Shown piece by piece: positions 1,444 through 17,196 of a DNA stretch of 22,694 nt. The first letter of the stretch is position 1. The number at the start of each line of letters is the position of its first letter. Source of the stretch: a virus; the IMG/VR virus record IMGVR_UViG_3300033141_001264, positions 1 to 22,694 of that record; one strand, written 5' to 3'. The position numbers and the translations under genes were made by a program. The notes under the pieces are model-generated. The model saw only the letters and a program-made list of their open reading frames with translations, was not told the origin of the DNA and did not search any database.

Positions 1444-1866
1444 TTACCACCTCGCTTTCTTTCCGCGCACGTCAACGTGGACGTGGCCATCTTTGTACCT
1501 TCCAAGTCCACCGTCTTGGAAATACTTCTCCGCAATGTCGGCTAGTTCGTTCATGCTCATTCCCTTGACATAAATATCAGCGGCATTGCCTCGCAAGTGT
1601 TGGCTCTTTTTCGCGCCGCCAACTTTCCTGTTCCTTTCGGGGCACCTGTAACCTGAATCAACTATAACCGGCTTGCCTATCTCGTCCCGTAGCTTTTGTA
1701 ATCGTCTTACAAGTTCCGGGTTGATTTTGACTGTTTTACAGCACGGGCATTGGAATTCTCTAAGCGAAAAATCCCTGCTAATTTGTATGTCATTCAACTT
1801 ATTGCCTAGCGAATTCTGCCTAATTATCTCCGCAAATTCCTTGGCTATTTGAAGCATGTTGTTCAT
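1444..1866 (-). CDS. Endolysin, M15-family peptidase (Peptidase_M15_3 type)
   Basis: This 140-aa protein looks like a phage M15 peptidase, a zinc enzyme that cuts peptide bonds in the peptidoglycan stem or cross-bridge. The core motif SGYRCPERNRKVGGAKKSQH (71-90), followed by GNAADI, supplies the zinc ligands His90 and Asp97. HVHVDV near residue 130 supplies the third histidine. An N-terminal cysteine cluster (Cys40, Cys42, Cys43) is common in this subfamily. There is no separate wall-binding domain and no signal peptide, so release would depend on the holin encoded next. The ATG at 1866 follows GAGGTG, which overlaps the TGA of the upstream protease gene. Whether it cleaves D-Ala-D-Ala or L-Ala-D-Glu bonds cannot be read from the sequence. 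Confidence 0.9.
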   Translation of the reverse strand: MNNMLQIAKEFAEIIRQNSLGNKLNDIQISRDFSLREFQCPCCKTVKINPELVRRLQKLRDEIGKPVIVDSGYRCPERNRKVGGAKKSQHLRGNAADIYVKGMSMNELADIAEKYFQDGGLGRYKDGHVHVDVRGKKARW

Positions 1867-1875
1867 AACAACACC

Positions 1876-2802
1876 TCATTCCAACAAGTCAAGCCTGTCC
1901 AAAATCACCGCAAGCTGCTCTCTCGTTACAATCCCCTTTGGATCCCAGTTCTCGCCGTCACCTTTCATTATCTCCTTCTTAATTGCCTTGGCTACTGATT
2001 GTCTCGCCCAAGGTGCTACCTTGTCCAAGTCTTTCAGTTTAGTAGTCATAGATTTGGTTCCCTCCAAACTACTAATTTCCGGCAAAACAAAAAGCCCGTA
2101 CCCTGTTTTAGGGTCGTGGCCCGGTTCTAGCAAGTCTTTCGCGTTTTCTTTCAGAAAGCCCAATGATTCTTCAGGTGTAGGATACCTGCCGTATTTCTCT
2201 TTGTGCCATTGAAACCACAGTGCTAACATGCCGGCTACCCAGGGAGCAGAAAAACTTGTACCGTGAACGTATCTGCCGGCAGAAAGGTACAGGCCAGAAA
2301 AACCGCATACGTCAAGTTTTTCACCAATGCTGCTATAATGAGTACGTTTTGGCTTACCATTAATAAGGGTACACGCGCCCACAGAAATCCAGGTGTCAAG
2401 AGTAGCGGCGTCGCTTAATCCTCGTTCCCCCTCGTTGCCAGCAGATGTTATAAGCGTGACATTGTTGGCAAGAAGGACACCCCTTTGCGCCTGTTCAATC
2501 TCCGGTGTATCGTTACCGCCTAAGCTCATTTCTACAATATTTACGCTTTCACCTACAAGGGACCAGTAGAACTGCCTGATTTTTCCCTGGCTTTCTGGCG
2601 TCAGGTGGCCGTTTATTGTAGTAAGACCCGGTTTCGGCCTTTCTAAGATTTCAGCATCAGGGGCAACCTGCTTTAAAATATCAGCTACATTGGCACCGTG
2701 GCCTTTGAAGTTCTCAAATACGGCTATCTTCACGCCTTTGCCGGTATAGCCAGCTTTGTGCCATTTGTCTATGCGGCAGTATTTCTTTTTTTCTTCGTTC
2801 AT
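1876..2802 (-). CDS. Subtilase (S8) with C-terminal S-layer-homology domain
   Basis: This 308-aa protein is a subtilisin-family serine peptidase fused to an SLH domain. His35 lies in a GHGANVADI motif, the oxyanion Asn123 in SAGNEG, and the catalytic Ser183 in HGTSFSAPWVAG. The usual catalytic Asp position after the first strand reads VKIAVFENF, with Glu30 in its place. Residues 258-308 form one SLH repeat (DLDKVAPWARQSVAKAI... followed by VTREQLAVILDRL); such repeats bind secondary wall polymers beneath S-layers. No signal peptide or prodomain is visible. It sits inside the lysis operon, between the XhlA-like gene and the endolysin, with a ribosome site made by the GGGGGG of the preceding gene. 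I infer that it reaches the wall during lysis and degrades surface-layer or wall protein. A virion-associated role is possible. Confidence 0.85.
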   Translation of the reverse strand: MNEEKKKYCRIDKWHKAGYTGKGVKIAVFENFKGHGANVADILKQVAPDAEILERPKPGLTTINGHLTPESQGKIRQFYWSLVGESVNIVEMSLGGNDTPEIEQAQRGVLLANNVTLITSAGNEGERGLSDAATLDTWISVGACTLINGKPKRTHYSSIGEKLDVCGFSGLYLSAGRYVHGTSFSAPWVAGMLALWFQWHKEKYGRYPTPEESLGFLKENAKDLLEPGHDPKTGYGLFVLPEISSLEGTKSMTTKLKDLDKVAPWARQSVAKAIKKEIMKGDGENWDPKGIVTREQLAVILDRLDLLE

Positions 2803-14898: not shown

Positions 14899-15450
14899 CT
14901 ATTCTTTGACTAACGAAAACCTAAATAAAACATCTGAATCAGACGCACCATCATTAGTAATACTAACAATGTAATCTGTATTTACATCTAATTTGAGTGG
15001 TAATTGAGTTCCTAATTTTTCTCCACCTACTATCTTTTGTCCGTATGTTCCGCCAAGATAATATTCATCTAACTGTGTACCGCCTGAAATGCCTGACGGG
15101 TCCGAATACGCTTTTGTATCAATTGTAGTAGTGCTTGCCCTGTTACGGTTTATTAATGATATTTCTGTAGTTCCATCAGTTATAGTAGGATTTTCAAAAA
15201 ATTTTAGCGTTATTTGGTCGCCATTTGTAACAATTGATTCAATTATATAACAAACATTGTCGTCTCCAGTTTTAATCTGTATATACGATGTACCAGAAGC
15301 TGTGACTGTATACTTGGCAAAACCAGCAAACACATTACCATCAAAAACAAGTTTATTTAAAATAGGCATAGACACAAAAGCATTTCTTGCTGTATCAAAT
15401 ACATTGCCAAATACAGTTAAAAAAAATTGCTCAAACTTATTACTAGCCAT
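14899..15450 (-). CDS. Beta-rich virion protein of unknown function
   Basis: This 183-aa protein is made of alternating beta-like segments with glycine, asparagine and threonine-rich turns (YTVTASGTSYIQIKTGDDN, ITLKFFENPTITDGTTEISL, LPLKLDVNTDYIVSITNDG). It has no signal peptide, helix-rich part or enzyme motif. Such proteins near the capsid genes are often head fibres or decoration proteins, and that is my best inference. Its ATG lies inside the 3' end of the zinc-finger gene (8-base overlap) with GGGGAGAAG upstream, so the two are coupled. Confidence 0.65.
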   Translation of the reverse strand: MASNKFEQFFLTVFGNVFDTARNAFVSMPILNKLVFDGNVFAGFAKYTVTASGTSYIQIKTGDDNVCYIIESIVTNGDQITLKFFENPTITDGTTEISLINRNRASTTTIDTKAYSDPSGISGGTQLDEYYLGGTYGQKIVGGEKLGTQLPLKLDVNTDYIVSITNDGASDSDVLFRFSLVKE

Positions 15451-15724
15451 TATTCACTTCTCCCCTCCTTTTTTTCGGATGTTCTATGCGGTAATGAGAA
15501 AGAAGTTCACCCATGTTATCAGTTTTAAAGTCACATTTTTTGCATTTATACTCTTTTATGCTTTCTTTCACAGGTACGCTGTCAAACCTGTGTTTGAACC
15601 TCTTGATTATCCGTTCGTTATCTGTGCAAAATTCACCGTTTTCGTCAAATCTGACATATTTTATATTGCCGATTGGCGGGTTAAACCGCACCAGCATATT
15701 AGGCTGTCCCTTAAACTTAATCAT
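15443..15724 (-). CDS. Small protein with a C-terminal C2H2 zinc finger
   Basis: This is a 93-aa protein. The N-terminal half (MLVRFNPPIGNIKYVRFDENGEFCTDNERIIKRF) resembles small structural phage proteins in which a beta strand is followed by 'ENGEF-T-D-ER-I' and a helix. The C-terminus holds a classical C2H2 finger: Cys61, Cys64, His77 and His82 in the spacing C-x2-C-x12-H-x4-H, with Phe67 and Leu75 as core residues, then a basic tail (KKRRGE). It may bind DNA or a partner protein. It sits between capsid and adaptor genes, so a head-completion or DNA-end role is possible. The ATG at 15724 follows AGAGGTG. Confidence 0.75.
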   Translation of the reverse strand: MIKFKGQPNMLVRFNPPIGNIKYVRFDENGEFCTDNERIIKRFKHRFDSVPVKESIKEYKCKKCDFKTDNMGELLSHYRIEHPKKRRGEVNNG

Positions 15725-15921: not shown

Positions 15922-15949
15922 TAGGGGCAAAGCCTAAGCCCTGCCCCTA
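15922..15949 (-). terminator. Hairpin after the decoration-protein gene (weak terminator or processing site)
   Basis: TAGGGGCA (15922-15929) and TGCCCCTA (15942-15949) form a perfect 8-bp stem with a 12-base loop. On the minus strand it is followed by TTCCTATATA, which is not a clear T-run. It lies seven bases after the decoration gene stop and could lower downstream expression or protect the abundant capsid mRNA. Confidence 0.5.
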
Positions 15950-16353: not shown

Positions 16354-17196
16354 TTATATAGCCGTTTCAGCGGCGTAAGTCAAGTTGAGACGTACTAAAT
16401 GGTCGCCTCGAACTACTTTGGCCCCATACACGTGCAATCCCCTTACCGCCGTGTCGAACGAACCTTCAAGTCTCATAGCTTCTGTTTCAACAATCTGATC
16501 GGCGTATACAATAGCATTATAACTGCCGGCCAGGCATTGGCTTTGTGGAGTATCTACAGTACCGAGGTTAACTACTTGGTTAGTGACGTAAATGTCAAAG
16601 CCAAGTTCTTTGGTCCATGCCATCCCGCCGGTGCCGTTGATACCGTTGTTAATCTGGAATTTGATGCCTGCCAACTGTAATTTCAGCCGTACCCAAGGGG
16701 GAATAACCATCCACATATCACTTTCAGGCACGTTCTGCTCGGCCAGTTTTTGTTGCGCTAAGCCAAGTGTCGAAAGGACGGTTGCACTGTCTAAGCTAGC
16801 ATCGGTTACAGTGTGCAAGGCATCGGTATATTTACCGAGAACAAAGCTATCGGCGGTTTCTTTAAGTTTGTAGGCAGCCCTTTCAGCTTGTGAACCTTTC
16901 AGGTCTACATTGGCCTGTGCCTTGGTAATATCGTCAACCTTGAACGCAAAGTATTTTTGTTGGTCGATTTGTAATACGACCTGTGCGTCTTTCAGTTCTT
17001 CGTAAGATACGCTGCCGGAATAAGTGTTGATTGTCGGGTCAGAAAGACCACTGAAGTAGACCGTATCGCCTGCCTTCTTGATAGTTCCGGAATACTCCTT
17101 ATTACAGATTTTCTTTGCTACCAGGTTATCTTCCAGCACCCGCAAAATCTTTGTTGACCATATCTTCGGTACAAAGTTCGGTACATCTACTGCCAT
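16354..17196 (-). CDS. Major capsid protein (P22 coat-like)
   Basis: This 280-aa protein follows the scaffold gene and begins FVPKIWSTKILRVLEDNLVA, a start typical of P22-coat-like capsid proteins. It is followed by a GDTVYFSGLSDPTINTYSG segment (N-arm and E-loop region), a long helix with AERAAYKLKETADSF, the MWMVIPPWVRLKLQL motif and a beta-rich C-terminus (VRGLHVYGAKVVRGDHLVRL). This is the order seen in HK97-fold coats. There is no protease gene upstream, so assembly probably uses scaffold release rather than cleavage. The ATG at 17196 has AAGGAGTGAT upstream. Confidence 0.85.
   Translation of the reverse strand: MAVDVPNFVPKIWSTKILRVLEDNLVAKKICNKEYSGTIKKAGDTVYFSGLSDPTINTYSGSVSYEELKDAQVVLQIDQQKYFAFKVDDITKAQANVDLKGSQAERAAYKLKETADSFVLGKYTDALHTVTDASLDSATVLSTLGLAQQKLAEQNVPESDMWMVIPPWVRLKLQLAGIKFQINNGINGTGGMAWTKELGFDIYVTNQVVNLGTVDTPQSQCLAGSYNAIVYADQIVETEAMRLEGSFDTAVRGLHVYGAKVVRGDHLVRLNLTYAAETAI

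Follow-up and report, generated by a model that had tools for sequence, protein, structure and literature searches.

A C2H2 zinc finger on a small head-module protein of uncultivated tailed phages: a possible mobile cassette exchanged with other tails

Single C2H2 zinc fingers are mostly discussed as eukaryotic, with a few cases known from archaeal viruses. The virus record IMGVR_UViG_3300033141_001264 of IMG/VR, whose 22,694 nucleotides we refer to as the window, encodes a small protein with such a motif among its head genes (Table 1), raising the question of whether the finger is real and what it might do there. The original prediction, made from the sequence alone, had the ORF, its strand, its length and its four ligands right, and the terminase, portal and capsid genes recognised with Pfam and PHROGs bear out its assignment to the head module. 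Other loci are named here by labels of the form L002.

Table 1. Coordinates of the features discussed; positions are those of the window unless a locus is named.
Feature	Position	Strand	Basis or remark
93-residue finger ORF: N-terminal module, linker and C-terminal C2H2 finger	15443..15724	(-)	ORF translation, AlphaFold2
N-terminal module, residues 1-53	15566..15724	(-)	common to finger, HeH-like and basic-tail relatives
C2H2 finger, residues 59-82 (ligands C61, C64, H77, H82)	15479..15550	(-)	motif, Pfam, AlphaFold2
AGGAGG, putative ribosome-binding-like site of the next gene, within the basic-tail codons	15464..15469	(-)	
8-nt overlap of the finger ORF and the next gene	15443..15450	(-)	
Terminator-like G+C-rich hairpin, weak T tail	15922..15949	(-)	upstream of the finger gene
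Micro-ORF, 21 residues	15833-15898	(-)	between the hairpin and the finger gene
Major capsid protein gene	16354..17196	(-)	PF25209, PHROG 267; anchor for locating relatives
Terminase gene	upstream of the finger gene	same as finger gene	PF04466
P22-type portal gene	upstream of the finger gene	same as finger gene	PF16510
283-residue ORF, taken as scaffold	upstream of the finger gene	same as finger gene	position only
127-residue gene, taken as decoration-like	upstream of the finger gene	same as finger gene	by position
Next gene, 183 residues	14899-15450	(-)	downstream of the finger gene; PHROG 5335, unknown function
Further ORFs, structural type	downstream		by position
Subtilase-family protease gene	1876-2802	(-)	PF00082 (E 6.4e-13), S-layer homology domain PF00395
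M15 peptidase gene	1444-1866		PF08291
ORFs with a DLTGxxFGxLT start	L002 2058-2354; L020 6473-7114; L025 5846-6511; L028 2994-3767; L143 1652-2278 and 3293-3973		

The ligands, arranged as C61-x2-C64-x12-H77-x4-H82, form the sole motif of this kind in the six frames of the window. A loose C2H2 pattern occurs there once, whereas 300 order-1 random windows average 0.31 occurrences, and when the hydrophobic core is also required the comparison becomes 1 against 0.007. The finger passes a ligand-spacing test of C-x2-4-C-x12-H-x3-5-H, and its x12 spacing rules out membership of the bacterial Ros/MucR zinc fingers, which are spaced C-x2-C-x9-H-x(3-4)-H; the zinc site of phage Mu Com we take to be all-Cys. 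Pfam C2H2 models score the whole window protein at E 1.9e-4 (21.6 bits) at best and the finger stretch alone at E 2.8e-5 (24.3 bits), both below the 27-bit cut-off, and the finger of locus L121, described below, exceeds the cut-off for zf-H2C2_5 (28.7 versus 27 bits). The family profile matched C2H2 fingers of solved structure, with 256 sequences at E up to 1 and a multi-finger PRDM9 chain as the best of them (6.7e-15), and an NCBIfam scan gave nothing of use. The AlphaFold2 model of the window protein, made with 33 aligned family members, has a mean pLDDT of 84.7 (about 91 for residues 61-80) and predicts a beta-beta-alpha finger with short strands at residues 59-60 and 67-68 and a helix at 71-81, which supports the fold originally proposed; given its pTM of 0.48, the model does not fix the placement of the N-terminal module relative to the finger. 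Foldseek matched nothing in the PDB at E 0.001 or better; single C2H2 fingers were among its highest rows, one of them in first place. In a viral structure library no row reached E 0.001 or better either: an unnamed 61-residue protein was at the top (E 0.015), and the rows included DUF7349 phage proteins (0.11-0.51) and an archaeal-virus C2H2 protein (0.26). Sequence comparison and modelling confirm that the window protein carries a real C2H2 finger, which would presumably bind zinc.

The finger departs from the canonical form in one respect. Leu74 stands at the canonical position, whereas Phe66 lies two residues past C64, a C-x-F variant in place of C-x3-F, and the statement that both residues are correctly placed holds for the leucine alone. 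Of 44 distinct finger proteins, 31 have the phenylalanine at the second place and 9 have it at the fourth. The conservation of the ligands in these 44, as in the 33 aligned family proteins, is partly a product of selection since both sets were picked by motif; carriers found later (L142, L143, L144 and L134, the last with a copy of the L044 protein on another contig) lie outside the 44-protein counts. In this set 41 proteins have His as the fourth ligand and 3 have Cys, at a spacing of 4 in 33, 3 in 10 and 5 in 1, and the helix face is marked by Gly at +2 (42 proteins), Leu at +4 (39) and Asn at -1 (30). The finger segments are mildly basic, with a mean net charge of +2 and a range of -2 to +5, and the linkers are acidic on average. 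Dozens of relatives, some with an overall identity as low as 26%, retain the ligands and core, but the basic tail KKRRG of the window protein is not conserved in them and, as its codons include AGGAGG, the stretch may reflect the signal of the next gene and not a function of the protein. Neither the placement of the phenylalanine as in a textbook finger nor the emphasis on the basic tail is borne out.

Relatives were sought by position, with the capsid protein as anchor, on 78 distinct contigs, and the gene was detected by a profile of the N-terminal module. It is present on 58 contigs, with a finger on 39, a tail that we call HeH-like (helix-extension-helix-like) on 14 and a basic tail on 4; the remaining copy, L080, is cut by the contig end and stands outside the tail counts. 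Of the 20 contigs where the profile detected no gene, 11 run for no more than 550 nt past the capsid gene, 4 (L029-L032) have distant capsids of 30-36% identity, and 5 (L009, L010, L070, L086 and L090) have at least 1.7 kb of room and no match. The distinct proteins in the same position, the window protein included, number 46: 33 with a finger, 9 HeH-like and 4 with a basic tail. The original prediction had looked to same-position homologues for conserved Cys and His; their absence from 13 of the 46 formally counts against it, and these 13 have a different tail and not decayed ligands. The closest relative of the window protein, and the single one that a search with it found in viral_contigs, is the 75-residue protein of L002, which matches it at 91% over residues 1-56, parallels it to residue 53 and then continues in a Lys/Pro-rich tail without a finger. 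The linker between the N-terminal module and the tail varies in length. The HeH-like assignment is our own reading of a sequence pattern and of a match of the L020 protein to the PHROG 'endonuclease VII' (E 6.8e-6); the modelled tail has two helices, predicted at a middling confidence of about 63-68. Pfam named no HeH-type domain in the 4 of the 9 HeH-like members that were scanned, and a PDB sequence search with the HeH-like alignment gave six rows, the best being RpoN at E 0.04. For the window protein itself AlphaFold2 predicts the finger and no helix-extension-helix tail.

What all three kinds of protein have in common is the N-terminal module of about 53 residues, which is predicted by AlphaFold2 to be beta-rich with one helix at residues 37-46. 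The modules of the finger and HeH-like members form one family, aligning in hhalign at 99.4% (E 1.7e-21) over columns 1-55 only. The best VIA structural match of the window module is YqbF of the Bacillus subtilis skin prophage (2HJQ, family PF14553), at a low Z of 3.9 (42 residues, 2.1 A); photosystem I subunit D and the other rows that follow score no higher than Z 2.8. With the model of a HeH-like member, YqbF alone reached Z 2 or above, at Z 3.2 and 9.1 A over 78. Membership of the YqbF family is unsupported by sequence, given that the window protein has no Pfam row for PF14553 and that hhalign with a PF14553 protein gave 0.3%; furthermore, no C2H2 finger is named in YqbF. We therefore regard the modelled kinship with YqbF as a lead and not as a membership. 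The gene slot agrees with it, as a PF14553 protein lies directly after the PF05065 capsid gene in L145; PF14553 is rare in sampled genomes (0 of 60; 2 of 398, one above the cut-off). The family alignment and this weak structural match together support the separate phage-type N-terminal module that had been suggested. Presumably HI1506 (2OUT) is a similar two-domain protein of a Mu-like prophage.

The tails appear to have been exchanged repeatedly. On a tree of the N-terminal module (55 columns, partly unresolved) the distribution of finger against other tails takes 7 changes, and well-supported branches require at least 5 of these. Within a group of 16 rows the window and L002 are sisters; all the other rows have the finger, so that a loss or replacement in L002 is most likely. 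The DNA shows one crossover at the junction of the modules: the N-terminal modules of L078 and L024 share 20 of 54 residues and their DNA before the linker 105 of 196 aligned nucleotides, whereas from the linker start through the tail and the next gene 367 of 375 nucleotides are identical, and this jump in identity at the linker start points to a recent event. In addition, L028 (finger) and L026 (HeH-like, with a protein identical to that of L025) have N-terminal modules identical at 33 of 55 residues and different tails, on contigs that share a metagenome number.

The same finger is also found on other proteins. Used alone as the query, it gave 24 loci, 13 of them on new contigs, and of these 8 have the N-terminal module of the family and 5 do not. 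In L109/L111 and L118/L119 the finger ends ORFs of 99-112 residues between the terminase and portal genes (PF04466 and PF16510 by Pfam in L109, the locus scanned), and the L109 and L118 contigs have no finger ORF in the 7.5-8.5 kb around or after the ORF in the capsid position. In L121 it lies on an 81-residue protein with a PHROG 933 start, encoded directly after an HK97-type (PF05065) capsid gene. The L109 and L121 proteins align with the family in hhalign across the finger columns only. The finger DNA of L109 and L067 is only 74% identical over 81 nt, so any transfer was not recent. L098 is a possible further carrier, with a finger-only match (E 1.4e-4) whose third ligand is Cys in an unrelated phage-like region.

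Apart from L098 and L033, a metagenome-assembled genome (MAG) of Anaerovorax odorimutans that points to Bacillota as hosts, the members found come from virus contigs. Among 391 genomes of the Clostridia, the class of L033, the two that match are the L033 genome itself and L098. In genome_contigs a protein search with the window protein gave 32 pattern matches and no relative, and a search with the capsid profile gave 1 relative among 56 pattern matches. Five queries against 50,697 annotated phage records returned no significant relative: the window protein gave six rows, all at E 1 or worse, L028, L085 and L109 gave no match, and L121 gave matches of E 0.7-1 that span 29 finger residues, in five Brevundimonas phages. 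None was found in the plasmids, searched with part of L038. Among the papers listed by literature searches, judged by titles and the starts of abstracts and with most subscription journals outside this scope, none dealt with C2H2 fingers in phage head-module proteins.

The surroundings of the gene bear on its expression. A terminator-like hairpin precedes 39 of 46 family genes (those of L066 and L069 being weak) but only 72 of 980 stretches of 110 nt drawn at random from the same loci, and none of 3 genes with other N-terminal domains. The scan covered 260 nt for the window, where hairpin and gene are about 200 nt apart, and 110 nt for the other loci; the window hairpin, with its weak T tail, is missing from the list of a stricter scan. 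If these hairpins work, the finger gene would be expressed less than the capsid cluster, in keeping with a low-copy part. In the interval between hairpin and gene the window has a micro-ORF for a membrane-like peptide (MKQYLNYLEWAVYIAIVGAII), preceded by GGAGG; in L002 the spacer is shorter and too small for it. Downstream, the 8-nt overlap with the next start codon makes translational coupling to the next gene, which had been put forward as a fact, plausible, and the gap to the next ORF is -11 to +14 nt in 39 of the 43 family loci that have one (3 of the 46 have none). Between the window and L002 the first 30 or so residues of the next gene product are kept and its body is unrelated, and in many relatives this product begins MSQ(A/G/L)..., as though exchangeable domains were attached to a short docking start.

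We believe, tentatively and at somewhat less than an even chance, that the product of the gene is a small head-module protein, probably of low copy number, made up of two exchangeable parts, the tail of which probably binds nucleic acid. The N-terminal module would dock on the head during its assembly, or on the portal side of it, and the tail would bind nucleic acid with little sequence specificity, most simply phage DNA that is being packaged or is already packaged. Given the position among head and packaging genes, the exchange with HeH-like tails and the reuse on unrelated N-terminal domains, the partner of the finger should be one common to many phages, and DNA is the simplest. The finger may thus be an interchangeable answer to the task of HeH/LEM proteins in the capsid-adjacent slot of other phages. 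The wider reading, which we advance with more reserve still, is that in uncultivated tailed phages the finger is a mobile cassette, carried by small head or packaging proteins of at least three unrelated kinds, swappable with HeH-type tails and handling viral DNA during packaging or after ejection. If true, this would place a zinc finger in a prohead or virion, far from its familiar setting in eukaryotic transcription factors. Conserved and mobile, the family keeps to one gene neighbourhood, in phages with no significant annotated relative to the five queries. It also amounts to a natural experiment, with one N-terminal head module, three kinds of tail and sister phages with and without the finger, and opens the role of small post-capsid proteins to testing.

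Parts of this proposal have parallels in known systems. ORF12 of the Streptococcus phage vB_Sags-UPM1, an 84-residue HeH/LEM protein annotated as DNA/RNA-binding and encoded between the connector and capsid genes, resembles the window protein in its size and in adjoining the capsid gene but, as far as the sections consulted describe it, has a HeH/LEM domain and no finger (PMC10221047). The ejection protein gp44 of 80alpha, a minor capsid protein present in about two copies per virion that binds DNA non-specifically as well as DNA ends, works in the way we propose; its gene lies between the portal and capsid genes, it is mostly helical to about residue 250, and the parts of the report seen mention no zinc finger (PMC7290940). 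The window protein is unlike this large, mainly helical type from the portal-capsid gap, having 93 residues, a place after the capsid gene and a beta-rich N-terminal module. AFV1p06 of the archaeal virus AFV1 has a single C2H2-like finger that binds zinc and DNA, with Glu as the fourth ligand and disordered extensions; in the portions consulted neither a module like that of the window protein nor a head gene is described (PMC3541406).

Other readings of the same evidence were weighed. The finger could be a protein-protein docking tail that recruits the product of the next gene, the portal, the terminase or a host protein and touches no nucleic acid. The near-constant helix face (Gly at +2 in 42 of 44), the HYR segment and the mild charge would suit a fixed partner, perhaps a protein, as well as they suit DNA, and the tight overlap with a variable next gene and the survival of L002 without a finger point the same way. 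However, with a next gene that varies widely and a finger that recurs beside other capsid genes, one shared viral partner is hard to name, and relatives swap the finger for HeH-like tails; we regard docking as rather unlikely. That the motif arose by chance, binding no zinc and having no function, we reject as extremely improbable: the lack of a finger in the closest relative and the Pfam score of the window protein under the cut-off speak for it, but the random-window counts, the conservation of ligands and core in dozens of divergent relatives, the L121 score above the zf-H2C2_5 cut-off and the match of the family profile to solved eukaryotic fingers all oppose it.

The protein might instead be a late regulator of transcription or translation, merely encoded in the head operon and taking no part in the virion or in packaging. 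Phage zinc-finger proteins can regulate, as does Com of phage Mu, a small nucleic-acid-binding translation activator that is not itself a head-module protein (PMC6483171, in the part consulted), and AFV1p06 is discussed in the accessible text as a possible regulator of its virus (PMC3541406). Against this, the place between the capsid gene and later structural-type genes is kept on 58 of 78 contigs, and the best structural match of the N-terminal module, YqbF, is a protein of the post-capsid slot, which makes regulation improbable in our estimation. Slightly more doubtful again is an outer capsid decoration protein displaying the finger outside. A trimeric outer minor capsid protein is, according to the part of the report available, the product of the JBD30 gene whose number directly follows that of the capsid gene (PMC11445458), but in the window it is the 127-residue gene that is closer to the capsid gene and in its transcription unit, and hairpins part the finger gene from it. 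We accordingly keep the low-copy, probably nucleic-acid-binding head-module protein as our tentative preference.

Two observations concern other genes of these contigs. Several loci have ORFs with a DLTGxxFGxLT start and the cysteine pairs CDCGN and KSCGC, inserted at differing places of the head module; a Pfam scan of the L028 and L143 copies gave no match, and they look like mobile, homing-endonuclease-like inserts. In the window, the gene for a subtilase-family protease with an S-layer homology domain adjoins that for an M15 peptidase, a pair unusual for a phage lysis region.
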